This document shows, piece after piece, positions 4,533-47,023 of a stretch of DNA of 49,821 nt. Source of the DNA: a virus; the IMG/VR virus record IMGVR_UViG_3300037504_000304, positions 1 through 49,821 of that record; one strand, given 5' to 3'. Both the position numbers and the translations under genes were made by a program. The notes under the pieces are model-generated. The model searched no databases. It saw only the letters and a list, made by a program, of their open reading frames with translations, and was not told the DNA's origin. Each line of letters opens with the position of its first letter. The first letter of the stretch is position 1.

Positions 4533-4683
4533 GCACATCAACCTGTTGGAAAAGGAACTGGAAGATGTCCCTGATGACGCGACCGTGGTCTTCTGGAACT
4601 CCGACCTGGATATACCGTTCGAGATGGGCGTCGAAAGTGTTCAAGAGCATGAGGGCGGGACCTATGAGGTCGGCATGTACTAG
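4519..4683 (+). CDS. Small hypothetical acidic protein (54 aa)
   Basis: ATG 4519 follows GGAAGGA and overlaps the upstream gene. The protein is acidic, with a helical N-terminus (HINLLEKELEDV) and a beta-like second half. This is the last gene of the plus-strand early unit. Its TAG (4681-4683) shares the palindrome CTAG with the stop of the convergent 1980-residue gene, leaving no room for a terminator. Confidence 0.62.
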   Translation: MTKREHINLLEKELEDVPDDATVVFWNSDLDIPFEMGVESVQEHEGGTYEVGMY

Positions 4684-7600: not shown

Positions 7601-10600
7601 TCACGTCTACGGGGTCTTGTCGCCCTTCCTGCTCTTCAAGCGCCTGCATGCTCTGGTCAATGCTTTCGAGCAGACCCTCCCGCCCGGTCGCCTCCGTCTC
7701 ACGACGCTGCGCCGCCTGCCGGATAGTGTCCGCGGCTGTAGGTCTAGGTGGGAGCTCAGCGCCTACTTGCGCCCATTCTCTGCGCAGACCTTCTTCGGTC
7801 AGGACGCGGATTCCGCTGTACTCAGACCCAAACTGCGCACTAGCCAGGTCCAAGTAGGTCCCGTCAGGCATTCGTATAACGGTATGAACTAGCTCTTCGG
7901 GGGATTGTTCTTGAATGACGTCTGCTGCGTCTTCACCTACCGGGGCCTTTCGGCCCTTGACGGTTACTGGTTCAACGTTCACCCCTCGCTCTTCGGCGAA
8001 CGACTCAAAGTCCCGGGCTACCGAATCGCATTCCTCACACGCCGCTTCTGGTTCGCTCAAAAGCGCAGGGGTATACGGTGCGTTAGGCTGAGAAAAGAAC
8101 GCCCCGCCAAGCTGAGCCGATTCAGGCGGAGTTCGCATACCAGGCAGCATCTCGTCCGCAGGGGTCTCAGGCTCTGATTGAGGCTCCGCCGCAAACAACT
8201 CGCTCTGCATAGACGTCGCTGTTCCGGATAACTCACCAATCATCCGGTCCACCTCGGACGTGTCTTGCCCAGATTGCTTAAGGACAGCGCGCTGTTCCTG
8301 AAGCACCTCAAGCGTACGTGGACCATAGACACTCAGAGCTTCCCGGGTATCCGGGCTCAGTTGTCGTAGCCGTTCCTGCTCGGCATATTCCTGTTGCGCA
8401 AACGCATGGAGCGACTCATCCGGCTGGACAACCGCCTGGGCTTCGGTGGAGTCAAAGTCGTCGACCTTGATGCGTTCACCGTCTTCCAACACCTTCCCGC
8501 CGTCTTGGGCGCTCTTGGCTTGGTGCCATTCGCCATTCATAAACACAAGCGCCCCCGGTTGAATCTCGGCCTCGTTGACCTCCTCAACCGGCATCTGTTT
8601 CAGTTGGAACAGGGCTTCTTCCGGCGTGGTCTCACGAACCTCCCACTGCCGTGCAGGCCCCGTAAACAGGTTGCGAAGGTCCTCAGGTCCGGCTTCAGGT
8701 CCTACCAACCCCGCCTGCTTGGCTTCTTCGAGCGCCTGGTCCCACGTTAGGGAACCTGCTTTCTTGATAACGCCCGGCGGGAACCGGCCACCGAAGTCCT
8801 CGTAGGTCAACCCGCTGTCTTTGACCGGTCTGATACCGGCTTTGCGCAGACGCTGACGGAACTCTGCCAACGCCTCATTCTCGTCTTCAATAACCTCCTG
8901 GTTCTCCCGCATAAACTGCTCCCGGTCCTTCTCCGTAGGAGCTTCAGTCTGTGGTGCATGTTCAGCGACCAGTTCGCCTTGGGCAGGAGCATCCGCATTG
9001 TCCACGTCCCGCTTTATGATGCGCCCACCGCGGCCTGTTTCGGTGATGTCACTCAAACGGATACCCTTGGCCTTTGCAGCTTTCTCAGCGGCAGGGGTGG
9101 CATCGGGTTTCTGGGCGAACGACCGCAGGTCGGGAGCTTCTTCGGTGGGGAGAGTCGGGTCTACGGGCGGAGCCAGGCCGGGGACCCTGTTAGGCGTCTC
9201 GTGGGACAGGCTGTCCCACCACGCGACAAGGTCGTCTCGGCCTTGAGCCCTCGCGTCCTCACGCCCAATGGCTATGACGTCCTCAAGTTCCCGCACCTCA
9301 GCAGGCGTTAACGTCTCAATCGGACGGCGGAGCAGGTCACGAGCGGATTCAAACCGTTTCCCTTTCGCTACCAGCGCCTCGCGTTGCGCGCGGCCTTCAT
9401 CGGCCCGGGCCATCTGACGTAGCTGCCGACGGTGCACCATCTCACCGGCCTTGTTCAGCCCTATGCCCGGAAGGTTGGTAGCTTCACCGCCGAGCTGAGC
9501 CACCGTGACCATAGCCGCCATCTTCTTGTAGGCGTCAAACACCTCGTCGGGCCCAAGTTCGTCGGGGTTCCACCGATATTCCGTCACCATGTCGTTGACG
9601 AACGATGCCGTCTCTTCGGCTTGCTCAGCCGTGAACCTGCCAAGCACGCGTTTGGTACCCGCCAAGATCCCCGACTTGGCTGCTGCACGTTTCGCAGGGG
9701 AGAAGATGTCCTCAAAACCGCCCAAACCGACACTCTGGAATAAAGAGGGTATGGCGACATCAGACACAGAAGCGCTGGCTACCCGGTTCCATTTCTCCGC
9801 CTCCGACAGACCTTCGCGCTCTGCTTCTTGGATGGTACGGTCAATGGACATCAAGCCCGTGCCGCCTATCATGGCGGCAGGAACGCTTAACGGCCCACCG
9901 AGGGCATAGGGCGCAAACGATAGGGATTCACCCAACGAACGAGTGCCACCCGTCACCGCTTCGGCGACAAACGGCGATGCGCCTGCCGCTTCGGCCTTCT
10001 TCTTTTGACGTTCCGTCTCAGCTTCTTGCCAAGGCCCGACCCGCGCACGCATACGTTCCAGTTTGTCCGCGCGTTCCCCGGCCTGCTCACCGAGATACTG
10101 GACCTCGGCTCCTTGCAGTACCTCGGGCAAGGCTTCGACGCCCCGCTCAATCATGCGGGCTCCCTCGACCTCCACGCCGGCCATCAGAGACCCGACGCTT
10201 TCCCCTGCCTGCCGGATACCCGACCAGACGTTCGACGGGACCTGACCCAAGGTCGCCCCGGTCTTCCTGACAGCGTCCATTGTGCTCGGACCAGGCCCCC
10301 CGATGGCCCCCGAAGGCCCGACATTGACGTCACTTGGCACAAACCGCTCCAACCCCTCTCTAGCGGGCCTTGAGCCATCTGTGAGCGACGTTCGGCCTTC
10401 CGGAGTACGTTGGGACGCCTGGGGCGCAGAAGTTGTTTCTGAGGGCGGAATAGGCCCCGTAGGAGCCTGGTTTCCATACGCAGGCTGGGGTTGGAACCCA
10501 CCTTGAACGAGACTCTTGCTAGGAAACCGTTGGTGGAGCGCCCGTTCCATCTCCTCCTGAGGAGTGTCGTCGGGGAACTCAACCACCGCGTTATAGTCTG

Positions 10601-10622
10601 GAACTTCGACTAGTTTAGGCAT
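4680..10622 (-). CDS. Giant internal-virion-type protein (1980 aa)
   Basis: Last and largest late gene. The N-terminus (FPDDTPQEEMERALHQRFP, residues 16-34) is a short motif common at the start of large phage virion proteins. Residues about 35-120 are Pro/Gly/Gln-rich and 120-300 contain hydrophobic, Ala/Gly-rich helices. Residues about 508-543 match the peripheral-subunit-binding (E3-binding) fold, with ATPAAEKAAKAKGI then ETGRGGRIIKRDV. Residues about 560-1090 are charged and helical. The C-terminal third, around 1420-1460 (RQTLLYMPWRISQF, LRNLTGDLP), resembles the large-polyvalent-protein-associated (LPD38-like) regions of giant phage proteins. By size and position it is probably packaged and ejected with DNA. 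No lytic transglycosylase or polymerase motif was found. Confidence 0.75.
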   Translation of the reverse strand: MPKLVEVPDYNAVVEFPDDTPQEEMERALHQRFPSKSLVQGGFQPQPAYGNQAPTGPIPPSETTSAPQASQRTPEGRTSLTDGSRPAREGLERFVPSDVNVGPSGAIGGPGPSTMDAVRKTGATLGQVPSNVWSGIRQAGESVGSLMAGVEVEGARMIERGVEALPEVLQGAEVQYLGEQAGERADKLERMRARVGPWQEAETERQKKKAEAAGASPFVAEAVTGGTRSLGESLSFAPYALGGPLSVPAAMIGGTGLMSIDRTIQEAEREGLSEAEKWNRVASASVSDVAIPSLFQSVGLGGFEDIFSPAKRAAAKSGILAGTKRVLGRFTAEQAEETASFVNDMVTEYRWNPDELGPDEVFDAYKKMAAMVTVAQLGGEATNLPGIGLNKAGEMVHRRQLRQMARADEGRAQREALVAKGKRFESARDLLRRPIETLTPAEVRELEDVIAIGREDARAQGRDDLVAWWDSLSHETPNRVPGLAPPVDPTLPTEEAPDLRSFAQKPDATPAAEKAAKAKGIRLSDITETGRGGRIIKRDVDNADAPAQGELVAEHAPQTEAPTEKDREQFMRENQEVIEDENEALAEFRQRLRKAGIRPVKDSGLTYEDFGGRFPPGVIKKAGSLTWDQALEEAKQAGLVGPEAGPEDLRNLFTGPARQWEVRETTPEEALFQLKQMPVEEVNEAEIQPGALVFMNGEWHQAKSAQDGGKVLEDGERIKVDDFDSTEAQAVVQPDESLHAFAQQEYAEQERLRQLSPDTREALSVYGPRTLEVLQEQRAVLKQSGQDTSEVDRMIGELSGTATSMQSELFAAEPQSEPETPADEMLPGMRTPPESAQLGGAFFSQPNAPYTPALLSEPEAACEECDSVARDFESFAEERGVNVEPVTVKGRKAPVGEDAADVIQEQSPEELVHTVIRMPDGTYLDLASAQFGSEYSGIRVLTEEGLRREWAQVGAELPPRPTAADTIRQAAQRRETEATGREGLLESIDQSMQALEEQEGRQDPVDVTLENIRAENEQERSQRTQRGAVYVGQPGRRRRGFRAQDPETQRVHNETSVPPRPEGVVRKAWNAFKSAGLFMVREQRHIPQFSTVYAPAKEMLNQFVKGVPSWVQRKTQSVLEEVTAPINAIEDHIERQRAHDTFNWGVKLRWANEALLRSRQESEQKGELPTYEDVADLLETTFELTPEQVLVELERFERQLAEWPEVRKALENRRRMLRSVTQEAKALGMIDSGATGDWYFHFAIQRYLYPDKFGKIGSMVPVRARKRGHQKARKERTKEWGDKYRPSSNFFVYEQQYYLQHYMEAAHRSLLIRLHTLYNTADEDGVVRIAGEPVTDEYVDYYASTDSMFRDALDISRMPEHLVNHLSSMFNLSEAETNALKSAIHNQHVRLPEPLKRQLESMRPQAEGVSQAWTRAMRFIAKGTRQTLLYMPWRISQFALRNLTGDLPILVATNPAAVKSVWTAFKQASNFHLRGQSSTLLDSAMQHSVIHGGLYGAMELGETRWQELGRDLENMSKAAHQKEGWKAALRKTGAIVSYSAGLPTRAIGILEDTPRLASYKAYLDKMKQGKPIRNYGASRKKTVDALRRHLGDEWAAAHMARRLSGDYAYTTQFGSLMRQYLMPFWGFTETVIRRLGVYGSNIVADTSGATRTNRNLNRALTALSLALPHLLLQAWNNMVMGDVEDELNTWQRIQPHLNLRYSKNGNHIVFNGVGLLADIQDWLGLDRLRQLMPYIKEDQMGLGTAAQEMGQAMASRAFNSLQPLATGAGSALTGINTYPDVTQPRRQPVGEAVMGGLGLGREFRALAQGDIPGGGTEFSRLERYALDLVADWANARETILYRPYDHIEAFKTATNAEDKEIRPPSQYSDMKRAVLRDDTEYFKRAKQRYLKAGGTEEKFMRYLGKGTTRRRTKRQRDAEGVSAEGAFDPLKAFGSNAEREQFKAWCTDEQWRDLQRAQEVANDIRGTLVEWWDADRRGQL

Positions 10623-20561: not shown

Positions 20562-20889
20562 TGCTCAAGTCCTCCATTGCTCTCCATGTCTTTGTCTGCA
20601 CGTCCTCGTCATCCTGTAACGAAGATTCGTCCTCAAAACTCCACTGCGCAATACCATTCAACACGTCTTCGTACGTCTTCAGCCGAGCCCGCCAATACTC
20701 CAGGTTCGCCGTCGTCGTCTCCGACTGCATAATAACCTGCATACACCGGTCCGCGTTCTGAAACAGCTTGTACAACAAGACCCGCGTACACGGGTTATCG
20801 AAGAACTCCACAATCACGCCCGGTTTAGCTTCGTCCGGAATCTCCGGCTCCTGCCGAGATAGTAGGTCTTTCAGTAACTCGTATCTCAA
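20554..20889 (-). CDS. Hypothetical portal-linked protein (111 aa), TTG start
   Basis: The TTG at 20889 overlaps the portal stop (TGA 20886-20888 on the minus strand). The protein is helical, with a Leu-rich middle (TRVLLYKLFQNADRCMQVIM) and an acidic tail. Small helical genes between portal and scaffold occur in several short-tailed phages without known function. The last 8 bases overlap the scaffold gene. Confidence 0.6.
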   Translation of the reverse strand: MRYELLKDLLSRQEPEIPDEAKPGVIVEFFDNPCTRVLLYKLFQNADRCMQVIMQSETTTANLEYWRARLKTYEDVLNGIAQWSFEDESSLQDDEDVQTKTWRAMEDLSNE

Positions 20890-22910
20890 ACCGCCATTTC
20901 CCCCATGGGTTGCAGTTGGCCGCTGTCAACGCCGGCGGCTACTTGTTCATCCGGAACCACTTGCGTGTTCATCTGGGGCATCTGGCCGCCTTCCCGCACG
21001 AACTCGCGCAGGTCTTCCGCGCCATTGATACGCGCCCAATGCATGAATATCGGCATGATTCCGCCAACGCTCTGCGTCAACTCGGGGACCGCTCCCTCCT
21101 GTTGGAGTATGGTCATCAGCACGTCCGTCCACGCCTGGCCGTTCTCCCGGTGCGGCAACACCCCGTTCCGCGGTTCCAACGTGAACCCGGGCCGAAGCAT
21201 CTGGTAGCTAACCGAAAGACTGTCCTCATTGGTCGGCAAGCCATACTCACGCCGAAGCAACTCCTCGTGTCGCCCCGCGATCTCAACAGCCGTCTCCATC
21301 TCCATAAACTGCATGGTGTTGTAGGCGAGTTGGTAGCCCAACGGACGCATAGCCTGCGTCTCAATCACCTGAGCCATCCATTGCAACCGGGATAGCGCGC
21401 CCGTCTGGGCCGCCTGAATGCCCTGCGCGGTAGGCCGCTCGGGCATCTTGCTCAGGTCACCTTGCACAATGTCCAACATGCCGCTGGCCTGTTTGTGCAT
21501 GTCCATCAGGAGCATCATGGACGGGATGTTCTGCTGCGTTACAGCGTTGTCCGTCAAACTTACGATATGCTTCCGGATGTCAAACTCACCAAACCCGGGG
21601 TTCTTGCTCCGAATCACTTTCCCCGGCCCGGGGTTCATCACGTCGTCCGTGCGGATAGCGCCAGAATCGTAGGCGACCGTCCCGTTGATGCTTTTGCGCA
21701 TATCGTCGATATACGTCTTCATCATCCAGTCAACGGCCTTCTGCATGGGGTACGTCTGCATAGCCTTACTGACCGGCAACACGCTATGTCCGTCGCTCGT
21801 TGGCGCGCACATGGCAATCGGGAACATGCCGTGGTACAGGTCCAACGGCTGCGCGCGTATCAGAATCTCGTCACCCGCAACGGCAAAGAGCCACTTTTCG
21901 GGCACCTTGGTGTCGCTCAACCCCCATTCGTAGGGGACCAAGTCTACGTAGAAATGAAGCACGTCAACCGCACTACTCAGGTCCGATTCGCCCAAGACGT
22001 TCGTCTCGCCGCGCGCGTCGCGACCGTGCTCCGCGCACTCATACAAGGTGCTCGTGGCAACCTTCTGCTCCGCGAACATCCGCACATACTTTGCGTTGAA
22101 CATCCGCTCTTCAGGGTCGTCCTCGCGCCGAAGCAAGTCCATACTGTTCGTGCGCTGTACCCACCCAAAGTATTCGGAGTCGTAGATCTCGTTAGGCGTT
22201 GCTTTGGGATCCAGGAACACCTGATACGGGTCTAAAGGCCGAAGCCGGTTGCCTTCGGCCTCGACGGTTTCCTCGGCAATCGACACCAGGTCCCCTTCAT
22301 CGATGTCGAGACCTACCTGGCGCGTTATCGTCGCCATCAGTTCCGTGACTTGTTCGTCCACGATATGACGTACCCGGTGCTTGCTCCATTCGGGAGCAAC
22401 CATGCCTATCCCGTAGGTGAACGCATCAGACCACATGGTTTGAAGGGCTAACGCGTGCCGCCAGAACATGGACTGCGCCGCGATCAGCTTCTCCATGACC
22501 GCCGCGCTAACCTTGTTCTGAGGTCCACCGATGCCTTTGTATCGGAACACAGGGTCAACCAGAAACGCGCTCGACATGTACGTCAGGAACGTTTCTTTCG
22601 ACGCCATAGTGATCGGCAGAACAATCGTGACCGGTTTGCGGCTGTCCTTCTGAAGCGTCGCATAGTCCGCCTCTTTCGTGGGCATATACGCCTGCATCTG
22701 CCAGTCCATATGCCGCCATTCTTCCTTGACGGGCGACCCCACGCTAGCAGATTGCCGGGCGAAATCTAGAAGGTTCTCTACGATATACTTGTGCATATCG
22801 CTCTTAGGATGCAGATTGTTGTCGAGCGGATACTCGTAATCGTACTCAACATCCTGAATCTGCTTGCGCAGGTCCGCTTTGCGGTTGGCTATGTCTTCTT
22901 GAAAGCTCAA
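20886..22910 (-). CDS. Portal protein
   Basis: 674 residues. Features fit the dodecameric portal of tailed phages: an N-terminal helical clip and wing with VLPITMASKETFLTYMSSAF (about 94-113), a strand-loop WSDAFTYGIGMVAPEW (about 158-173), RPLDPYQVFLDPKATPNEI near 225, and a long C-terminal crown helix region with MQKAVDWMMKTYIDDMRKS and GMLDIVQGDLSKMPERPTAQGIQAAQTGA. The P-x-R-x-T-A-x-x-I motif near the C-terminus is typical of portals. Start is TTG 22910, overlapping the upstream stop. Confidence 0.85.
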   Translation of the reverse strand: MSFQEDIANRKADLRKQIQDVEYDYEYPLDNNLHPKSDMHKYIVENLLDFARQSASVGSPVKEEWRHMDWQMQAYMPTKEADYATLQKDSRKPVTIVLPITMASKETFLTYMSSAFLVDPVFRYKGIGGPQNKVSAAVMEKLIAAQSMFWRHALALQTMWSDAFTYGIGMVAPEWSKHRVRHIVDEQVTELMATITRQVGLDIDEGDLVSIAEETVEAEGNRLRPLDPYQVFLDPKATPNEIYDSEYFGWVQRTNSMDLLRREDDPEERMFNAKYVRMFAEQKVATSTLYECAEHGRDARGETNVLGESDLSSAVDVLHFYVDLVPYEWGLSDTKVPEKWLFAVAGDEILIRAQPLDLYHGMFPIAMCAPTSDGHSVLPVSKAMQTYPMQKAVDWMMKTYIDDMRKSINGTVAYDSGAIRTDDVMNPGPGKVIRSKNPGFGEFDIRKHIVSLTDNAVTQQNIPSMMLLMDMHKQASGMLDIVQGDLSKMPERPTAQGIQAAQTGALSRLQWMAQVIETQAMRPLGYQLAYNTMQFMEMETAVEIAGRHEELLRREYGLPTNEDSLSVSYQMLRPGFTLEPRNGVLPHRENGQAWTDVLMTILQQEGAVPELTQSVGGIMPIFMHWARINGAEDLREFVREGGQMPQMNTQVVPDEQVAAGVDSGQLQPMGEMAV

Positions 22911-27559: not shown

Positions 27560-29212
27560 CTAAAATGGACCCCTTTCTAGTTCCCACACGCGGTTGCGAA
27601 CCTGCGCGTCATCCGTTTTCGATTCATCCCAAGGCGTCACAAAAGGCATGCCTTCCACGTCCGCGAACACCGACACGTACCCACCTTCATGTAGTATCTG
27701 AGGTACATAACCCGCGCAGTCGAGCGCGTCCCAGTACTTGGGCCGGTCGAACGACAGCATCTGTTGCTCCATGGCGCTGCCTTTCAACCGCTCCTCGTGC
27801 CAGACAAGCCCCTTCTGGTAGTAAGGGACTAGCTGCGAGGCGCGTGCGCGTTTGGCCGCGTCACGGCCCGTACCGTAGTCGCCTTTCGGAGCCGCCCGGC
27901 TCTTCAGCCACACAAACTTGAGCTGTTCCAAACCACGTTGCCGGCGTTCCGTCTCAAACATGTGCTGGATGTGCTCGTCAAGGCCCGTCACCTCAACGCC
28001 GACAACCGGACTGTTGGTGCGGACAGCCAGGTCCAGCGTCTGCCGAAGGATCTCCGCCGGGGTCAGGCGCTCATTGATGAGCGACCGCATATAGATCCCG
28101 TTCACGTCCATGTCCACGGCTGCCGCCAGGATGGCCGTGTACGCGCTATGTTGCTTACTTGTATTTGCGGGATCCACAATAATGAACCGCATGTACTCAG
28201 GACTGCTCTGTAGCTTCAGGTCCTGTTCCCGGTAGTACTTGAACATGTCCTGCGTCCACGAGGCCGTCTCGGTGGCTTGCGGAAGGCACATGAACTCGCG
28301 CGCATAGTTGTCCATCGCGCCCGCTTGCTTTGCCTGCTCAACCTCCGAGGCGATCTGCTCGTCGCTGAACAACTCGGGGACATTCGACACATACGTCGGG
28401 TTGCCCGCATCGTCCTTGCCAAACTTAGCTCGCGGCAGGACGTCGCTCGCCCACCGCGATGAGTCGAGCAGATGTTGCATTAAGGAATCTTCATGCTTTA
28501 GCGTGTCGATGTAGAAGAAACGCCAGGGCGGCTCGGTCTCCGTCTCAGGCCACCGGTTCGTGGTCGGATCCGGGTTGCGGCTCGTGTCAATGCATGGGAG
28601 GACCTCGGAGTAGAACCAGTCGCGGTCCTTGGCTCGGTTCTCTTCGTTCAGCAGCTCTTCATCGTCTTCCAGATCGTCCATGACCAACAACGTAGGCCGA
28701 ACAATCTTGTTCCCCATGTATAGGTTCATGCCGCGGACCGGTTGTCCGCGGCCTTTCGGGACCACCATGCTGATCGGTTGCCCGCTGTCAGGGTCAGAGA
28801 GCATATAGCTCTCCTTGCTGAACGTCAGGTCGACGTCCTCGAAAGACGTTGCCTTCAGATTCCCGAAGGTGCTCCGAATGTACCGGTTATTCAGGAGCAT
28901 CATCTTCAGGTTTTCGGTGTTCTTCTGCGCTTCGCGATAGTTCTTGGACAGGTAGACCACGAACGGCGCTTCCCGATAACAGATAGCGCGGATGATAAGT
29001 AGCTTCGCCAGCGTCGACTTACCGATGCCGCGCGCGCCACAGATGGCCGTGTAGGCTTGATGCTTATCGTCTATGGCTTGGTATACACGGTCCCGAAGGG
29101 CACAGTCAGACCGCGGCCCGTCGAAGATTTCAGGATAGAACATCTTGCCGAAGAACTTGCTGTCCGCATAGCCCCGGGCTAGAATGTCTTGGATGTCCTT
29201 ATCCTGACCCAC
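27560..29212 (-). CDS. terL: Large terminase subunit (packaging ATPase and nuclease)
   Basis: 550 residues with a full set of motifs: Walker A CGARGIGKST (about 58-67), Walker B LLVMDDLEDD (about 175-184), a coupling region near WRFFYIDT, and the RNase H-like nuclease acids D347 in IIVDPAN, E407 in VGVEVTG, and D495/D498 in YWDALDCAG. The enzyme drives DNA into the prohead at the portal and cuts the concatemer. The start is GTG, one base from the previous stop. It lies in the middle of the late operon, well away from the small-terminase candidate at 33543. Confidence 0.93.
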   Translation of the reverse strand: MGQDKDIQDILARGYADSKFFGKMFYPEIFDGPRSDCALRDRVYQAIDDKHQAYTAICGARGIGKSTLAKLLIIRAICYREAPFVVYLSKNYREAQKNTENLKMMLLNNRYIRSTFGNLKATSFEDVDLTFSKESYMLSDPDSGQPISMVVPKGRGQPVRGMNLYMGNKIVRPTLLVMDDLEDDEELLNEENRAKDRDWFYSEVLPCIDTSRNPDPTTNRWPETETEPPWRFFYIDTLKHEDSLMQHLLDSSRWASDVLPRAKFGKDDAGNPTYVSNVPELFSDEQIASEVEQAKQAGAMDNYAREFMCLPQATETASWTQDMFKYYREQDLKLQSSPEYMRFIIVDPANTSKQHSAYTAILAAAVDMDVNGIYMRSLINERLTPAEILRQTLDLAVRTNSPVVGVEVTGLDEHIQHMFETERRQRGLEQLKFVWLKSRAAPKGDYGTGRDAAKRARASQLVPYYQKGLVWHEERLKGSAMEQQMLSFDRPKYWDALDCAGYVPQILHEGGYVSVFADVEGMPFVTPWDESKTDDAQVRNRVWELERGPF

Positions 29213-29617
29213 CTAGTGCAACACCCGACCCTCGATGGTTACGTTGGTGGTGCCAGTGCTTGACGTGGCTTGGAATTTGATCGCGTAGCAGGGAGGGAGT
29301 TCAACCCACGCGGCCCCGCTCTCGGTAGAAGCGAGCACGTGGACCGCGTTGCTCCCGCTGCCGCTGGAATACCGCATCGCGTAGATGTTGGTGTCCGTCC
29401 AGTCGGCATCTTCGAGCAACGTATGCCAGTCCGCCCCCGAGACCGGCTGTACAAGCAGGGAGAGACCGGCGAGGGTCTCACCCGTGTTCTCTACATAAAA
29501 GAAAAGTTCCGTGAAGTTGTTGTTGAGGACGATAGCACTCCCAACGTCCTCAGCAGAGTCCCCCACAGTCCCGTTGGACTCCTCGAACACCTTCACTTCC
29601 CGGTCGAAATACGGCAC
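29213..29617 (-). CDS. Small beta-rich virion-type protein (134 aa)
   Basis: GTG start overlapping the previous TAA. Beta-sandwich composition with Thr/Ser/Asn/Asp turns (IVLNNNFTELFFYVENTGETLAGLSLLVQPV, TTNVTIEGRVLH). The NTG-TLAGL pattern is common in phage fibre-attached or head-decoration proteins. Position just before the large terminase gene gives no firm role. Confidence 0.52.
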   Translation of the reverse strand: MPYFDREVKVFEESNGTVGDSAEDVGSAIVLNNNFTELFFYVENTGETLAGLSLLVQPVSGADWHTLLEDADWTDTNIYAMRYSSGSGSNAVHVLASTESGAAWVELPPCYAIKFQATSSTGTTNVTIEGRVLH

Positions 29618-32202: not shown

Positions 32203-32760
32203 CTAAGCCGCATCCAATCGGTTAATCCAACCCCGAATATCGCCGCGTACCCAGTCGTCTTCGTGGACGCGCTGGTTGTAGTACATGCCCGCGTGTATCT
32301 TATAGGCCGCCGTCAAGGTCTGTGCCTCTTCCGTTCTCAAGAACCGGTTAACCCAACGGGCGGTCACGGGACCAAGCGCCCCATCTTCCAGCAGGCCGTC
32401 CATCCAACCATAGCGAACCATGTTGTAGGCTTGCTGAAGAACCAGTTGACCGCGATATTGACCCGTATGCACGCCAAACAAAAGAGCCTGCGTAGCCAAA
32501 CGGGCTTGCTCAACGCCGTCATCAATGCGAATGAGCCCCATGGGAGCCCAGAAGTTGTCGTAGAAGAATTTCTTGCGGTAACGCGGCTCTTTTTTGAGCC
32601 GCTCAACGTCCACCCCGGGCCAGTATCGAAGCGAGATGCCGTACCAGGTCTCGCCTCCTGGGTCGGTTGCGCGGTCCGCGAACCCACCCTCTTTTTCGAC
32701 AAGCACTTCATACGCAGCTTCGAAGTTCCTGGAGCCCCAAGGCAAATCATCAGCCTCCAT
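32203..32760 (-). CDS. Endolysin, glycoside hydrolase family 108
   Basis: 185 residues. The GH108 (N-acetylmuramidase) signature is present: EKEGGFADRATDPGGETWYGIS near the N-terminus, in which E24 in EGG is the expected catalytic acid and DPGG-T-YGI the conserved loop. LQQAYNMVRYGWMDGLLEDGALGP fits the C-terminal PG_binding_3-like part of the family. The enzyme cleaves the peptidoglycan glycan backbone of Gram-negative cells at the end of infection. No signal peptide was seen, so it should depend on the holin. Confidence 0.9.
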   Translation of the reverse strand: MEADDLPWGSRNFEAAYEVLVEKEGGFADRATDPGGETWYGISLRYWPGVDVERLKKEPRYRKKFFYDNFWAPMGLIRIDDGVEQARLATQALLFGVHTGQYRGQLVLQQAYNMVRYGWMDGLLEDGALGPVTARWVNRFLRTEEAQTLTAAYKIHAGMYYNQRVHEDDWVRGDIRGWINRLDAA

Positions 32761-33275: not shown

Positions 33276-33598
33276 GCGTCGAAAGCCTTCTTCAACTGCC
33301 CCAACCCAACGCCGACCTCACTAACCGCCACGTCCGCCGTGGTCGTGCCGTTCTTGTTCAGCGCGTAGACCGTCACCTTCACCAACGAATGGTTATCTCC
33401 AAGCGAACAAGCTTCAGTAAGCTCCTCAGAAGTGATGCGCTTACCGTCTCGTTCGACGCCTTGCCCGCTTGAGGCAGGCGCGGTGACCCAGCTCGCGCTA
33501 AGCTGAACCCATCCCGCACCACTCTCTTCGATAAGACGCTCCTCAGCCTTCGCCGTCGTCGGAGCCGTCGTCCCCTTCGTCCCACTCGATTTCGCCAT
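33272..33598 (-). CDS. Hypothetical beta-rich protein (108 aa)
   Basis: ATG 33598 follows GAGGAG by 10 bases and is chosen over the ATG at 33622. The protein has a Ser/Thr/Lys-rich flexible N-terminus, then a compact beta domain (GAGWVQLSASWVTAP; HSLVKVTVYALNKNGTT). It overlaps the end of the upstream terminase-like gene by 56 bases. Not recognised. Confidence 0.58.
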   Translation of the reverse strand: MAKSSGTKGTTAPTTAKAEERLIEESGAGWVQLSASWVTAPASSGQGVERDGKRITSEELTEACSLGDNHSLVKVTVYALNKNGTTTADVAVSEVGVGLGQLKKAFDA

Positions 33599-34088
33599 CC
33601 TCGGGTAACTCCTCGTTGTCAACCACTTCGCCGACCACCTGCCGGCGGTACCGGCTCTTCATGTCTTCCAAGGCGTCAGCCGTCACCTGGTGCAGATGAT
33701 TCACGCTACCGTCCACCTTGGTCCTGGACTGCTTCACGAACTCGCCCGACGGATGCCGGTCAAGCGCCATCTCCGTAGCCCGTATCAGCTCATTGCTCTC
33801 AAGGTCTCCGGCCTCAACCATCTCTTTGAGCTGACCGGTCCCCAGCTCAGCGATCTCTTCGATGTTCCGCTTGACGTTGGCCGCCAACAACTCAGACCCA
33901 CTCTTCAACTGCTCGACATGCGCCTTGAACGGGTCATGACACGCCAACACGCGCAGCGTCTTCTCAGTCAGTCCCACCGAAGGCGCAATCGCCTTCCACG
34001 GCATACCCAACGCACGCAACCTCGCAGCCTCACGATGCCGCTGCGGCGCATCCTCAATCTTCGTGTATTTCCACTGACCAATGCTCAT
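33543..34088 (-). CDS. Small terminase subunit candidate (HTH protein)
   Basis: 181 residues, first gene of the late unit. Residues about 14-60 hold a terminase-type HTH (REAARLRALGMPWKAIAPSVGLTEKTLRVL) followed by a helical oligomerisation-like region (about 60-110) and an acidic C-terminus (DGEIEWDEGDDGSDDGEG). This matches the layout of TerS proteins, which bind pac or cos DNA. The gene for the large subunit is 4.3 kb downstream. The start ATG lies 8 nt from the -10 of its promoter, so the mRNA is probably leaderless. Confidence 0.6.
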   Translation of the reverse strand: MSIGQWKYTKIEDAPQRHREAARLRALGMPWKAIAPSVGLTEKTLRVLACHDPFKAHVEQLKSGSELLAANVKRNIEEIAELGTGQLKEMVEAGDLESNELIRATEMALDRHPSGEFVKQSRTKVDGSVNHLHQVTADALEDMKSRYRRQVVGEVVDNEELPEDGEIEWDEGDDGSDDGEG

Positions 34089-34096
34089 TTAGCTTG

Positions 34097-34126
34097 ATTG
34101 TACCACAAATTGGATACCCATGTCAA
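34097..34126 (-). promoter_or_regulatory. Late promoter, leaderless type
   Basis: On the minus strand: -35 TTGACA (34121-34126), 18-base spacer ending TTGTGG, -10 TACAAT (34097-34102). The expected transcription start is about base 34090, two bases before the ATG of the small-terminase candidate. It drives the whole late operon as far as can be seen. The TGTGG-TA context recurs in other promoters of this genome. Confidence 0.75.
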
Positions 34127-34192
34127 ATCGCGGGCATATGCCCGCATGTCAGAGTTGACCCTCATCTCAGTTAAGACAAGTAGGCCACGTTA

Positions 34193-34215
34193 AGCTCACC
34201 TCATCGTGGTGAGCT
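34193..34215 (+). other. Hairpin A of a mutually exclusive pair
   Basis: A perfect 8-bp stem (34193-34200 AGCTCACC with 34208-34215 GGTGAGCT), 7-base loop. Its right arm shares GCT (34213-34215) with the left arm of hairpin B, so both cannot fully form at once. Confidence 0.6.
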
Positions 34216-34235
34216 GAGCGCACCAAGCGCTCAGC
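34213..34235 (+). other. Hairpin B of a mutually exclusive pair
   Basis: A perfect 8-bp stem (34213-34220 GCTGAGCG with 34228-34235 CGCTCAGC), 7-base loop. Same size and loop length as hairpin A. Confidence 0.6.
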
Positions 34236-34356
34236 AGCATGGGCATCGCCTCGCGCGCGTGCGCGCGGTTATAACCGTTATAACCTGTTATAACCGTTAT
34301 AACCAGGTTACCGTTATAACCGTTATAACCAGGTATCTGTTATAACCCATTCTAAA

Positions 34357-34379
34357 GGGACGCCCCTTAAGGGCGTCCC
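34357..34379. terminator. Perfect hairpin in the origin-like region
   Basis: 9-bp stem GGGACGCCC / GGGCGTCCC with a 5-base loop, between palindromes 7 and 8. No T-run, so function (terminator, origin structure) is open. Confidence 0.5.
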
Positions 34380-34407
34380 GTTATAACCGTTATAACTGTT
34401 GGTTGCA

Positions 34408-34429
34408 GGGGCGTCTTCTTAGACGCCCC
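34408..34429. terminator. Perfect hairpin with TCTT loop
   Basis: 9-bp stem GGGGCGTCT / AGACGCCCC with a 4-base loop. A CGTCTCTT direct repeat follows at 34433-34447. Could act in either direction. Confidence 0.5.
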
Positions 34430-34461
34430 GATCGTCTCTTCGTCTCTTCGTATGTTATCGT

Positions 34462-34495
34462 GTTCCGTCCGCCCCTTTAGAGGGCGGAACGGAAC
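34462..34495. terminator. Long hairpin with one-base bulge
   Basis: Inner stem TCCGCCC / GGGCGGA (34468-34474 with 34482-34488) and outer stem GTTCCG / CGGAAC (34462-34467 with 34490-34495), with A34489 bulged. The tenth GTTATAAC follows one base later. Confidence 0.5.
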
Positions 34496-35663
34496 GTTAT
34501 AACCAGGTTACCGTAATCACCATCGTGGGGTTACCGCGGTTACCTCCCCCCTCTGGCCTCCGTTGTCACTCCGGCCATCTCCCCCGTTACTTCTAAAACA
34601 GAGCCGATTTGGATAGTTATTCCCAACTTATTTCTCGTGATATCTTCACGATTGGCAAACCCCTTAGCTGACAATGACTTACGTGAATCAATAATTTCAC
34701 TGTGTTACACTGACCATTTTGACACACGGTGGAAATCGTACTACGTGTATGGTGCGTAACATGTACGTGGTACCAAGGCCCAAAATACCGCGGATTTTTT
34801 ATGGGGGTGTGTCACTTCTCACATGCACACCCGGGGACCCCCCTCGGCACCCCCGGTCCGCTGCACCGCCACGTCGGCCCTCGGCATGACCATCGCCACC
34901 ACACCGTCGCTCATGTCAAGTACACTTTACATTGGTAGGGGGTAGGGGGTGGTGAGTGGACGGGTTGGTCCAGGGGACAATCAGACCTGAGGTGACCTAT
35001 GGGATAAGGTGAGGTGATAGGTGCCGGCCGGCTTGCACCTGCCTGCCCTCGAGGTGAGAGGTGAGGTCCGCTGGCTTGCTCCGCTGCGTTGGCGCTCACC
35101 CGTTAGAGACAAAGCAGCTTGACACTCACGAACGGGGGAATGTGATTGACAACGCCCAGAAGGAACGCTCCGAAGATATGGCAACGGTCCGAAGGGCAGG
35201 CCCCACAGCTGAGCATGTGATAAGGTGTGCTGTAGGAGGCCCAAAACGCCTCCAGAATCGCCGAACGGGGCTGAGACGGGTTATCATGCTCAAGGGAGGC
35301 AAGAAGCGCTTAGAGAGACGAAAAACGCGTCCTAGAAGCCTTTTTGTACGATTGCGTCACGTTCCTGCTTCAATTCTCCAAACCAGTCCATATGCCGAAT
35401 CATTCCTAGATAGTAACGATTCTTATTTAGGGTCATCGAGACAAACGCAACGTTTTGTAACGGTTGTTCTTGTTTCCTACATTTTCGTGTGGTTTGGGCC
35501 TGGTGTTACGATTTTACCTAAGGTGTTACGAATCTACCCAGCGGCGTGAAGAAAGGTGACAGTGGTGTGAGTAGAAAGGTTACGTTCAACCGGTTGAATG
35601 AGTTGGCATGGGGATTGCTTCATAGAGTGCGTATCGGGATTGTGGGCGGCTGAAAATTAGGGC

Positions 35664-35692
35664 TTGACAAGATGGTCAGGGGCTGCTATAAT
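35664..35692 (+). promoter_or_regulatory. Consensus sigma-70 early promoter
   Basis: TTGACA (35664-35669), exactly 17 bases, TATAAT (35687-35692): a full consensus promoter. Transcription should start near 35699 and run into the first module gene, whose leader also holds a 6-bp hairpin (35704-35720). Its strength without an activator marks it as an immediate-early promoter. Confidence 0.88.
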
Positions 35693-35725: not shown

Positions 35726-35737
35726 ACCGTGGAAAGG
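35726..35737 (+). repeat. ACCGTGGAAAGG box 1
   Basis: Perfect 12-base box, first base 20 nt before ATG 35746. GGAAAGG serves as the ribosome-binding site. Six more direct copies follow before 38021. Confidence 0.88.
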
Positions 35738-37071: not shown

Positions 37072-37080
37072 CTAGCCGAA

Positions 37081-37099
37081 ACGGGCCCTTGCGGCCCGT
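37081..37099 (+). terminator. Module hairpin 4 (variant)
   Basis: 7-bp stem ACGGGCC / GGCCCGT around a 5-base loop. Unlike the others it is not followed by TCACCTC, and a second GC-rich stretch (37100-37130) lies before box 5. Confidence 0.55.
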
Positions 37100-37138
37100 C
37101 GCGCCGGCGTGGTGGCCGGTGCCTGACGAAGGTAGCCA

Positions 37139-37150
37139 ACCGTGGAAAGG
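37139..37150 (+). repeat. ACCGTGGAAAGG box 5
   Basis: Perfect copy; ATG 37159 is 20 nt after its first base. Confidence 0.88.
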
Positions 37151-37417: not shown

Positions 37418-37651
37418 TCAGCGCTGTTTATCGAGCCAGGCCTGGAATATGCCAAGCGCGAGCCAATGAACCAGCGTATGATCGGCGTCATCCTGAAGCC
37501 GGTCGACATGCGTACGGACCTCAGGCCTGGCGAGCCAGTTACAGACGTGTTTGCGAGAGACCCCAAACTCCTCGGCTATCTCTCTCGCGGCTAGGCCGCG
37601 GACGACACTTCGGCAGAATGCGCGGTCGCGGTCAGAAAGTTTTTTGCTCAT
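37418..37651 (-). CDS. Minus-strand HTH regulator candidate (77 aa)
   Basis: The only minus-strand gene inside the early region. Residues about 20-42 form an HTH (AAREIAEEFGVSRKHVCNWLARPEV) in a small helical protein similar to regulator or terminase-type HTHs. ATG 37651 is exactly where transcription should begin from the promoter at 37658-37686, so the mRNA is probably leaderless. That promoter overlaps the early promoter at 37676-37704, making this a likely local repressor or switch. The plus-strand frame 37391-37594 is its shadow. Confidence 0.72.
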   Translation of the reverse strand: MSKKLSDRDRAFCRSVVRGLAAREIAEEFGVSRKHVCNWLARPEVRTHVDRLQDDADHTLVHWLALGIFQAWLDKQR

Positions 37652-37657
37652 GCCAAA

Positions 37658-37686
37658 ATTTTACCACAAAAGGCATTGACAATCAA
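37658..37686 (-). promoter_or_regulatory. Promoter of minus-strand HTH gene (leaderless)
   Basis: On the minus strand: -35 TTGATT (37681-37686), 17 bases, -10 TAAAAT (37658-37663) preceded by TTTTGTGG. Six bases separate the -10 from ATG 37651, placing +1 on the A of the start codon. Its -35 shares base 37681 with the opposing promoter. Confidence 0.68.
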
Positions 37687-40449: not shown

Positions 40450-41019
40450 ATGCAACTAACAGACGCAGATGCACGGTTGATCACAGGGTACGCAAAACGC
40501 AGGTTTGGCGAGGCGGGCGAAGAGATCGCGCAGAACGCCGCGCTACGCTTACTTCAAGACACGAACTACACAGAGCAGGGTAAACGCAATAGCTACATAC
40601 TGAGAGCCGTACATATGGCCGGGGCCAGCTATTACCAGGGAGACTGGCATTCCAACAACACCGAGGTGCTGGACGAGTCAGACCATGAGCCATGGATGGT
40701 CTACCAAGACCACGGAGCGGACTACGGCGACGAAGTCCACACTGCGTTTGCTGCACTATCAGACCAGTTCCGCGGTGTAGCTGAACTACGCTATATGAGA
40801 GATATGTCCTGCAAACAGATAGCGGAGGCACTTGGCATACCGGTAGGCACCGCATTAAGTCGGGTCTCACGCGCGCGTGACCGGCTCACATCGAGTTTAT
40901 CTGGTTACGCAAAAACGGAGTACCGGATAAACGCCAGCAGGACAATCGGCTACAGGCACTTCTCTACCACCGGTCAACGTCGTCGTCCTCTGGGTGCGGG
41001 TGTGCGTAGATCTGCGTAA
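40450..41019 (+). CDS. ECF-like RNA polymerase sigma factor
   Basis: 189 residues. The C-terminal region (about 99-150), AFAALSDQFRGVAELRYMRDMSCKQIAEALGIPVGTALSRVSRARDRL, is a clear sigma region 4 HTH. The weaker region 2 lies at 18-60 (EIAQNAALRLLQDT, SYILRAVHM). The C-terminal extension after 150 is basic and not part of the usual fold. Such a factor could redirect host polymerase to non-consensus phage promoters, perhaps middle or late ones. It sits in the short unit started by the promoter at 39318. Confidence 0.8.
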   Translation: MQLTDADARLITGYAKRRFGEAGEEIAQNAALRLLQDTNYTEQGKRNSYILRAVHMAGASYYQGDWHSNNTEVLDESDHEPWMVYQDHGADYGDEVHTAFAALSDQFRGVAELRYMRDMSCKQIAEALGIPVGTALSRVSRARDRLTSSLSGYAKTEYRINASRTIGYRHFSTTGQRRRPLGAGVRRSA

Positions 41020-43882: not shown

Positions 43883-44166
43883 ATGAAATACGTAGTTGTT
43901 ACCACAGACAAGGACAGACAGGGCGTTTTTGGTGGGTACCTGAAAGGCGGTAGTGCCGACGCCGGGGTTGTTACGTTAGTTGATGCCAGAATGGCCGTGT
44001 ACTGGTCCCAGGAAACGCGCGGGGTGCTGGGGCTGGCGTCTATTGGTCCGCAATCGGGCAGCGCATTACGCCTCCAGTTCCTCTCATTGAACTCAACGGT
44101 GTTACCTCGGTGATTGAGTGCACCCAAGAAGCGACCGCTCAGTGGGAGCTGGGGCTATGGGATTAG
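43883..44166 (+). pseudogene. DUF6948-like gene broken by a frameshift
   Basis: The frame from ATG 43883 reads well to GPQSGS (about 44062), then becomes noise and stops at 44113. The -1 frame from about 44062 reads RITPPVPLIELNGVTSVIECTQEATAQWELGLWD to TAG 44166, which is the expected C-terminus of the DUF6948-type family. No slippery heptamer is visible. A missing base in assembly or a true frameshift is likelier than programmed slippage. Intact, it would be about 94 residues. Overlaps the next start. Confidence 0.8.
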
Positions 44167-44756
44167 AGGTTTGCGAGGGCAACGGCTATGGCAACGGCCA
44201 CGGCTACGGCTTCTGCTACGGCTACGGCTACGGCTACGGCCATGGCTACGGCTACGGCCATGGCTACGGCTATAGCTACGGCTACGGCCACGGCCACGGC
44301 TCTGGCGATGGCAACGGCTATGGCAACGGCCACGGCTCCGGCTACGGCAACGGCCACGGCCACGGCTACGGCTACGAAGACGGCGACGGCTCCGGCTACA
44401 GCTACGGCTACGGCTACGGCTACGACGACGGCCACGGCTACGGTTACGGCGTAAGCGGTGCAGTCCTACACATTCCTGAAGACAGTGCGTGGACGGCTTA
44501 TCACTATATAGTGAAGGGGGAGAACGGTGCCTATTATCTTCGTGGCGGCAGGGCTGTGGAGATTGGCCAGCATTTACACGAGGACGATATAAAGATGTGT
44601 TCTCGCGGATTGCATGCTAGTTTGTCGCCAGATGACGCTCGCGATTATCGCCCGTTAGGAGACGCGGTGCTGACGCTTGTGAGTGTTTGGGGGAGAGTGC
44701 AACTCGATAGGGACAAGCTAGTTGCAACAGACCGCATGATCGTGAAGGAGTTGTGA
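44157..44756 (+). CDS. Gly-Tyr-rich repeat protein with DUF7666-like domain
   Basis: ATG 44157 follows GGGAGC and is used instead of GTG 44118. Residues about 8-98 are an almost pure string of G-Y, G-H, G-N and G-S dipeptides. Residues 100-199 are a folded domain (AVLHIPEDSAWTAYHYIVKG, CSRGLHASLSPDDARDY, DAVLTLVSVWGRVQLDRDKLVATDRMIVKEL), close to the DUF7666-type domain of phages. The low-complexity part suggests phase separation or a flexible linker. Confidence 0.7.
   Translation: MGLEVCEGNGYGNGHGYGFCYGYGYGYGHGYGYGHGYGYSYGYGHGHGSGDGNGYGNGHGSGYGNGHGHGYGYEDGDGSGYSYGYGYGYDDGHGYGYGVSGAVLHIPEDSAWTAYHYIVKGENGAYYLRGGRAVEIGQHLHEDDIKMCSRGLHASLSPDDARDYRPLGDAVLTLVSVWGRVQLDRDKLVATDRMIVKEL
44178..44450 (+). 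repeat. GGCTAC-type hexamer tract
   Basis: An imperfect tract of six-base units (GGCTAC with GGCCAC, GGCAAC, GGCTCC variants) encoding Gly plus Tyr, His, Asn, Asp or Ser. Gly codons are almost always GGC, the second codon varies mostly at bases 1 and 2. Expected to change length easily. Confidence 0.92.
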
Positions 44757-45154: not shown

Positions 45155-47023
45155 ATGGATTTAGACAGCTATCTCAGGGACGGAGTCAGTCAAGGAGACC
45201 GAAACAACAACCTATACCGGGCGGCGTTGGCCGCCCGGGAGCAAGGTTGGGATGAAGCGCGTATACGGGAGCGCATCGGGGAGAAGGCGAGAGCCGTGGA
45301 CGGCCTGCCGCAATATGAAGTAGACCGCACGATACAGAGCGCGATGCAGCGGGACGATGTTGTCCCGCAAGCGCCGCAAGGGAACATAACGCAGTTCCCT
45401 TCGAAACTTCGGCTCAAAGCATCCCAGATACCGTTACCGGCGCATGATTGGCAGACGGACGACCTGGACCGCCTTCTGCGCGCCGCGTTCCGAGACGACG
45501 AATACGTGTGCTATGCCCCGTCCTCTTCCGCCGGCCACCCGCAACGTGGTCGGTTCCATTCGTCCGAAGAGTTGCAAGGCGATCTCGACGGACGGCTTAC
45601 CTCCGAGGCCCTAGCGCTCCACCCGAGCGCTGGGGCCTTCGTTAAAGTCAACCCCATGGACGGGAACGGCGAGAACGATGCGAACGTCGCAGCCTACCGC
45701 CATACGCTGTTGGAGAGTGACGACCTACCAATTGACGAACAGTGGGGGCTTGTTACGAACTCCCGGGTTCCCGTAACCGCTGCCATTCACAGCGGCAACA
45801 AGAGCATTCACTTTTGGGTACGCGTCGATGCCGTCACGCGCGAGCAGTACGACGAACGCGTGATGTTTCTGCATGACCACATGGCGTCCCTTGGGTTCCA
45901 ACCGGACCAAAAGTGCAAGAACCCAAGTCGTCACAGCCGGTTGCCTGGGGTCTATCGCGGCGACGCTCAGCAGTACCTTCTCGGAACCGACCTCGGATAC
46001 CAGGACTGGCATCAATGGATGGAGGCGCTGCGGTCCCGCAAGAGCGGTTTACCTGCCATCGAATGCGCGACGGCCTGGGTTGACGAGCACATCGAGCCTG
46101 CCCGGGAGCTGATAAGCGGCCTGCTCAGGGAAGGTCACAAGCTCATGCTGAGCGGTCCGAGCAAGATTGGTAAGAGTTTCTTGCTCATTCACCTTGCGAT
46201 GTGTGTCGCCTCCGGTGCGCGTTGGTACAACTGGGCATGCGCTAAGGGCCGCGTCCTGTATGTCAACTTCGAGGTGGCCAGCGAATCGTTCAAGAACCGG
46301 GTGCAGGACGTGCGGTTGCACGTCCCCGACTTCGACGCTGCGAACTGGTTTCAGTGGGATTTGCGGGGACACATGCCGGCGAGTCTGACCACGTTTGTAG
46401 ACGAGCTGGTCGAAGGCGCGCAGAGCATCGGGCCCCGGCTCATTGTCCTCGACCCCATCTACAAGCTACTCAGCCATCACGACGAGAACACCGCCAACCA
46501 TATCAGCGCCGCCTGTAACGAGCTGGACCGTATCGGCACGGCTACGGGGGCCGCCCTGGCCTACGTTCACCACTTCTCGAAACAAGGTCACAAGGACAGC
46601 CAGGTTGAAAACCGGGCCAGCGGTTCGGGTGTGTTTGCCCGGGACCCCGACGCCATTGGCACGTTGACCCCGGAAGGCGACGAGTGGGGAGTTACGCGGC
46701 TTGAATGGAGCCTGCGCGAGTTCCCGCGGCCACGCAGCGTCAAGCTGCGGATGCGTCATCCGGTACCGGAAGTGCTGGACGGCGGGTACCTTGAACCAAC
46801 GCAGGCCAACATGCCGAAGAAGGACGCCGTAGAGCGGTACTTGGAAACAGGGGAGGGGAACGTGTCGGGTTTGGCAGACCGGTTCAACCTACCGGCCTAC
46901 GCGGTCGGCAACCATCTTCGGGGCCTGGGTTATGTGGTCATCAACAACAAGATCCAACACCCCGTAACAACTTTTGACGTCGACATGGAGCCACTAGACG
47001 AAGACGAGGAGGTGCCGTTTTGA
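45155..47023 (+). CDS. Primase-helicase with PriCT-like, primase-polymerase and RepA-type ATPase regions
   Basis: 622 residues. Residues 10-65 resemble PriCT (GDRNNNLYRAALAAREQGW...YEVDRTIQSA). Residues about 105-290 are a primase-polymerase (AEP) region with E187-S-D189, SGNKSIHFWVRVDA (213-226) and RHSRLPG. Residues about 320-520 are a RecA-like, RepA-type helicase with Walker A GPSKIGKS (334-341) and Walker B LIVLDPIYKL (429-438). Near 555-605 a winged-helix-like region follows. The C-terminus is DEDEEVPF. It should prime and unwind the phage DNA and use the tip to engage replication partners. Confidence 0.85.
   Translation: MDLDSYLRDGVSQGDRNNNLYRAALAAREQGWDEARIRERIGEKARAVDGLPQYEVDRTIQSAMQRDDVVPQAPQGNITQFPSKLRLKASQIPLPAHDWQTDDLDRLLRAAFRDDEYVCYAPSSSAGHPQRGRFHSSEELQGDLDGRLTSEALALHPSAGAFVKVNPMDGNGENDANVAAYRHTLLESDDLPIDEQWGLVTNSRVPVTAAIHSGNKSIHFWVRVDAVTREQYDERVMFLHDHMASLGFQPDQKCKNPSRHSRLPGVYRGDAQQYLLGTDLGYQDWHQWMEALRSRKSGLPAIECATAWVDEHIEPARELISGLLREGHKLMLSGPSKIGKSFLLIHLAMCVASGARWYNWACAKGRVLYVNFEVASESFKNRVQDVRLHVPDFDAANWFQWDLRGHMPASLTTFVDELVEGAQSIGPRLIVLDPIYKLLSHHDENTANHISAACNELDRIGTATGAALAYVHHFSKQGHKDSQVENRASGSGVFARDPDAIGTLTPEGDEWGVTRLEWSLREFPRPRSVKLRMRHPVPEVLDGGYLEPTQANMPKKDAVERYLETGEGNVSGLADRFNLPAYAVGNHLRGLGYVVINNKIQHPVTTFDVDMEPLDEDEEVPF
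47003..47023 (+). repeat. Tail/RBS/TTG segment, copy 1
   Basis: 21 bases identical to 49316-49336. They encode DEEVPF and stop, hold GAGGAGG, and supply the TTG start (47020) of the next gene. Confidence 0.85.

Follow-up and report, generated by a model that had tools for sequence, protein, structure and literature searches.

The stretch at 34.19-34.72 kb of this phage genome is best explained, as a single reading of the sequence, as a candidate replication origin of the phage, an assignment that we consider about equally likely to be right or wrong. We prefer it because the window, an IMG/VR virus record taken in full (49,821 bases), combines features of the RSF1010, pRN1 and Ceduovirus origins, and because relatives of the phage's primase-helicase carry an element of repeats and a stem-loop 3' of their gene, while this phage has one here. 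The initial annotation had already proposed an origin at this place. The proposal stands as the best single explanation, now on the grounds of the relatives' 3' elements, but two other readings stay alive: a packaging site, since the gene for the small terminase subunit (terS) flanks the array, and a regulator array, since the arrays of relatives often lie near a ribbon-helix-helix-like gene.

The phage is without a close relative in the collections searched: no close DNA relatives were found in phage records, and the TerS and primase peptides retrieved none from IMG/VR. Its late operon runs leftward from 34088 to 4680 and includes the genes for the endolysin (32203-32760), the large terminase (27560-29212) and the portal (20886-22910). 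The early operon runs rightward from 35.7 kb to the record end and continues from the record start to about 4.5 kb; it includes the genes for an exonuclease (from 39269), an Erf-like annealing protein (from 42065) and a helicase/DNA methyltransferase (from 47020). No DNA polymerase was recognised among the phage's genes. The two operons converge at 4.7 kb and diverge at 34.1-35.7 kb, and the sole long non-coding region of the genome (34089-35709) lies at the point of divergence. The first late gene (33543-34088, minus strand) gave no match above the cut-off in family databases. A profile of 45 small-terminase sequences, taken from relatives that had been found through the large terminase, matched it over 152 residues (hmmsearch, E 2.7e-10) and matched no other of the 69 window proteins. 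With this gene identified as a terS homologue, the array described below lies just upstream of the first late gene.

Within the non-coding region, the 8-bp palindrome GTTATAAC occurs ten times, and every exact copy in the window falls within 34268-34503 (mean of 0.32 and maximum of 2 copies in shuffled sequences). The array has no strand. Eight sites form four pairs with starts at 34268/34277, 34287/34296, 34313/34322 and 34380/34389. The partners are 9 bp apart, and each pair constitutes a 17-bp dyad, GTTATAAC-C-GTTATAAC (34268-34284, 34287-34303, 34313-34329 and 34380-34396), with two single sites at 34339-34346 and 34496-34503. The starts are spaced by 9, 10, 9, 17, 9 and 17 bp, which rules out an in-frame coding repeat. 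A degenerate companion, GGTTACC (34306-34544, plus strand), is present at 34306, 34506, 34529 and 34538, the last two likewise 9 bp apart; six more copies occur in the genome outside the array region. For DnaA boxes and IHF sites, the region contained one-mismatch matches only and no exact match. Rfam returned nothing at gathering score at the array, and its mir-2001 matches there were discarded as due to the palindromes. A search for GTTATAAC in PubMed Central full text gave nothing relevant among the matches listed. In IMG/VR, the paired motif alone was found in 14 scattered contigs, mostly with one pair each; several matches to the three-site pattern, including that in L186, a distant terminase relative, turned out to be coding Gly-Tyr-Asn or Cys-rich repeats.

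Around and between the palindromes lie five hairpins, and the two kinds of motif together make up a 315-base non-coding element. Two adjacent, slightly overlapping hairpins lie ahead of the array (34193-34215 and 34213-34235, the latter with a 9-bp perfect stem in a long fold). They are followed by two perfect 9-bp GC-rich hairpins, GGGACGCCC-cttaa-GGGCGTCCC at 34357-34379 (z -5.0) and GGGGCGTCT-tctt-AGACGCCCC at 34408-34429 (z -5.5), and by the long hairpin GTTCCGTCCGCCC-ctttaga-GGGCGGAACGGAAC at 34462-34495 (z -4.9), which directly abuts the last palindrome. Folded as single-stranded DNA, the segment 34180-34560 reached -94.7 kcal/mol as compared to -50.2 kcal/mol in shuffles (z -11). Among 382 windows along the genome, scored with mononucleotide shuffles and RNA folding parameters, those starting at 34191 and 34321 ranked lowest in fold z-score. 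No region except that of the array combined strong folding with a strong short-repeat signal; for 34180-34510, the fold z-score was -11 to -13 and the repeat z-score +31. The array and its hairpins are thus beyond chance and unique in the genome.

The element is flanked by two divergent promoters. The late promoter, TTGACA-18-TACAAT (34126-34097, minus strand), precedes the start codon of terS by 8 nt and is nearly leaderless; a 16-bp palindrome, GCGGGCATATGCCCGC, is located just upstream of its -35 box. The -35 box itself is about 140 bp from the first GTTATAAC site of the array. The early promoter, TTGACA-17-TATAAT (35664-35692, plus strand), is 1.16 kb away from the last palindrome. Next to the array, the stretch 34590-34720 has a GC content of 37.4%, versus roughly 57% in most of the genome, and is a candidate unwinding element. 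Several claims of the initial annotation are borne out by these data. The ten palindromes, eight of them in four pairs at 9-base phasing, were confirmed by the exact count against shuffles, and the perfect hairpins before and between them by the folding z-scores; the non-coding character of the region between divergent early and late promoters agrees with the location of both promoters and the non-coding spacing, and the AT-rich stretch downstream was recovered as well. Cumulative GC skew, which had been suggested as a check, has its minimum at 34930, in agreement with an origin, and its maximum at 4685, but it is not independent of transcription direction. The extremes coincide approximately with the switches of transcription direction, and in relatives, among them L049, L078, L050, L051 and L093, the skew is lowest close to the point of divergence, at a distance from the array of hundreds of bases up to over 1 kb. 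Since the minimum in relatives mostly tracks the divergence point, GC skew is no test of the origin, and we dropped it as confounded by transcription.

The phage's primase-helicase (45155-47023, plus strand; 622 residues) comprises PriCT_1, a primase domain, an AAA_25 helicase and a predicted C-terminal winged helix. Its AlphaFold model (mean pLDDT 77.7) had RSF1010 RepA as the best structural match (1nlf, 1olo, 1g8y), and the sequence profile matched 1g8y with an E value of 8.7e-11. The C-terminus is modelled as a helix-helix-helix-strand pattern (residues 556-597, pLDDT about 60-75), which is common to the relatives and which we read as a probable winged helix. It is still true, as initially annotated, that no initiator other than the primase-helicase is visible, but a candidate origin-binding domain is visible in this predicted winged helix. 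Neither PHROGs nor Pfam identified a RepC-like iteron-binding initiator in the scanned proteins, many early proteins being of unknown function.

In relatives of the primase-helicase, we compared the gap directly 3' of its gene with other gaps of the same loci. The median fold z-score, again from RNA parameters and mononucleotide shuffles, was -6.4 in the gaps 3' of the primase gene versus -0.9 in the control gaps, and the repeat z-score was 6.8 versus 0.45. Both signals, folding and repeats, were present in 16 of the 27 gaps behind the primase gene and in 3 of the 161 control gaps (p about 1e-12), a statistical link between the protein family and repeat plus stem-loop DNA. In the typical element, short repeat units, at times palindromic, come first and a GC-rich stem-loop comes after them (L198, L196, L208 and phage BCJA1c); in L198, three CCGCAATTGCGG palindromes precede the stem-loop. 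Some of these stem-loops may be transcription terminators, which does not explain the repeats. We take the elements to be putative replication origins of the relatives. The phage's own primase gene overlaps the next gene, leaving no gap and no fold or repeat signal there, and the same double signature is found at 34.2-34.5 kb. This distance of 10.6 kb between the array and the primase gene, unlike the arrangement in the relatives, speaks against the origin. In addition, the arrays need not belong to the primase-helicase, since most of the terminase relatives checked lack the helicase (PF13481 matched in only 3 of 14), yet many have arrays at the equivalent place.

The element resembles several known origins in part. 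RSF1010 uses RepC to bind iterons, RepA to unwind, and RepB' to prime at the ssiA and ssiB stem-loops (PMC4234260). The phage shares the RepA-like helicase domain and the combination of tandem repeats with stem-loops, comparable to iterons plus ssiA/ssiB in oriV; its primase and helicase are, however, fused, no RepC homologue was found, and the repeats are 8-bp palindromes instead of the plasmid's iterons. In pRN1, a winged-helix domain is combined with primase and helicase domains in the replication protein, which requires a stem-loop located 3' of its gene; stem-loop DNA of this type has been reported as a candidate origin in phages, too (PMC4234260). The phage protein has the same three kinds of domain, the C-terminal winged helix being predicted, and here as well stem-loop DNA is the candidate origin. 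In contrast to pRN1, the phage has a RepA-like and not an SF3 helicase, its palindrome array is combined with several hairpins, and the element does not directly follow the gene but is remote from it. The origins of Ceduovirus (lactococcal c2) phages are situated in non-coding DNA between divergent early and late genes, contain palindromes and repeats, and support plasmid replication; the type of sequence differs from phage to phage, but its location is conserved (PMC7150918). The array studied here likewise occupies non-coding DNA between divergent early and late genes and consists of palindromes and repeats, a likeness of layout. The c2 origin needs no additional phage proteins and has the early promoter PE1 inside it, whereas a phage primase-helicase is present here and the early promoter lies outside the element. 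The lambda origin, located inside gene O and bound by O, has dyad-symmetric sites near AT-rich DNA. The phage, too, has four sites with dyad symmetry close to AT-rich DNA, similar in size to those of lambda (17 bp here), although no O homologue was recognised.

Binding, unwinding and initiation at the array are steps that we infer for such an origin. The GTTATAAC dyads would be bound cooperatively by an initiator, for which the candidates are the winged helix at the C-terminus of the primase-helicase and a small early protein that has escaped recognition. The AT-rich stretch beside the array would open next, and the RepA-like helicase would then be loaded. The exposed GC-rich stem-loops could serve as priming sites for the fused primase, as do ssiA and ssiB of RSF1010, a role also proposed for the pRN1 stem-loop, and a host polymerase would extend the primers, no phage polymerase having been found.

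The main rival to an origin is that the GTTATAAC array represents operators of a ribbon-helix-helix or HTH regulator that coats the early/late divergence and switches transcription, which we regard as possible, though rather unlikely. It remains a serious rival on account of the arrays in the terminase relatives. Of these, 36 extend for 1 kb or more upstream of terS, and 18 terminase relatives carry a short tandem array in non-coding DNA within 2.5 kb upstream of terS. With the window included, 27 arrays were counted in 32.7 kb upstream of terS versus 1 in 38.4 kb of other non-coding DNA, a comparison based on simple ORF calls; the DNA upstream of terS consists of long gaps rich in AT, and coding triplets are another possible source of 9-bp periods. 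A period of 9 is the commonest among the arrays upstream of terS, and the array sequences differ between phages. As a rule, the array of these relatives occupies the early side, and in several of them it adjoins a gene whose product has an N-terminus resembling ribbon-helix-helix proteins. Such genes occupy the early side of the divergence region in the relatives (23 ORFs) and are directly beside the array in L079, L040 and L098. Palindromes of 8 bp in 9-bp steps would suit the cooperative ribbon-helix-helix binding known from MetJ-type boxes. However, the fold assignment in the relatives is itself weak: AlphaFold predicts an extended segment and two confident helices, and the best Foldseek match had an E value of 4.2. 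A profile of the relatives' ribbon-helix-helix-like proteins, which a very divergent homologue could escape, matched no window ORF, and Pfam detected no ribbon-helix-helix domain in the window's small proteins scanned.

The motif itself also occurs in settings that suit a regulator. A dyad similar to the 17-bp pairs is found many times between the genes of another phage contig (L008:7881-13628), where 12 GTTATAAC sites are spread across 6 kb, mostly as dyads AAGTTATAAC-N-GTTATAA(G/C)TT; by sequence, these look like a dispersed operator or promoter motif. In a Nanoarchaeota MAG (L184:6035-6276), three GTTATAAC sites at 9-bp steps lie directly upstream of a VapB-like antitoxin gene. The window encodes potential readers in an HTH_3 protein (1744-2097) and an HTH_23 ORF (37418-37651). 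Against a regulator, the array overlaps neither promoter, being about 140-380 bp upstream of the late -35 box and more than 1.1 kb from the early promoter, and the perfect GC-rich hairpins would have no role in a simple operator. The 77-aa HTH_23 protein is encoded on the minus strand, opposite to the early operon, and its gene with the back-to-back promoters at 37676 (+) and 37686 (-) forms a small switch-like arrangement. Both leftward promoters, at 34088-34102 (-) and 37651-37663 (-), have their -10 box about 6-8 nt before the start codon and share TTTGTGGTA(C/A)AAT; terS and the small HTH gene may thus be leaderless.

It is improbable that the array is a packaging initiation site (pac or cos) read by the neighbouring small terminase subunit. 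The late gene adjoining the array is indeed the small-terminase homologue, and multi-site packaging signals have precedents in phage P1 pac and lambda cosB. The hairpins would be unexpected in such a site, however, and many relatives have another conserved gene between the array and terS (22 ORFs). The product of this gene, some 120 aa long, is an early protein (L049:8586-8942 plus 21 further ORFs); it was considered as the array reader and rejected, as the window has no recognisable homologue. The terminases of L079 and L094 are 83% identical with nearly the same HTH, and their arrays are unrelated, which, for this one pair, speaks against the terminase as the array reader. Contig ends in the relatives do not cluster clearly either; 20 of 30 ends lie no more than 2.2 kb upstream of terS, but ends located between TerS and TerL were equally common, and we discarded contig ends as a sign of a terminus. 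Least of all do we expect the hairpins to act within an RNA transcribed across the region, as a non-coding RNA or attenuator: folding is very strong and a weak promoter-like site lies at 34668 (+), but the array is transcribed from neither strong promoter, the hairpins have no terminator-like T-tract, Rfam gave no match at gathering score there, and the short self-palindromic boxes resemble sites for a protein on double-stranded DNA.

Other features were observed along both operons. The sequence CCGTGGAAAGG is a start-associated leader of early genes, located just before the start codons at 35727, 36027, 36326, 36708, 37140, 37736 and 38010 (+) and 39259 (-); at four sites it is preceded by a GC-rich hairpin and TCACCTC. 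Several GAGGTGA/GGTGAGGTGA motifs at 34980-35075 (+) are complementary to this TCACCTC, and RNA pairing between them is possible. A type II hammerhead ribozyme (Rfam RF02276, 63 bits, E 8.5e-11) is located at 37074-37141 (+), in the interval between two genes of the early operon and immediately ahead of a copy of the repeated leader. A 189-aa protein with sigma-70 region 4 is encoded at 40450-41019 (+), and ORF 44118-44756 contains about 45 copies of the 6-bp unit GGCTAC (44178-44450). The last late protein (4680-10622, minus strand; 1980 aa) carries an E3-binding domain (PF02817, E 2e-9), apparently an unusual domain for a phage protein, and a tRNA-Gly (acc) is predicted at 29283-29361 (-) within an ORF upstream of the large terminase.

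Returning to the candidate origin, the results connect a widespread family of phage primase-helicases with a recognisable DNA signature, usually 3' of the gene, and this phage offers a case of its apparent relocation to the boundary between early and late genes. With low confidence, we suggest that it may be a new type of origin, composed of 8-bp self-palindromes at 9-bp steps with perfect stem-loops interspersed among them and moved from the replication gene to the divide between early and late promoters, where one nucleoprotein complex would couple the start of replication with the early-to-late switch. The origins of most uncultured phages are unknown, and origin prediction from short repeats plus a stem-loop becomes testable across many phages.
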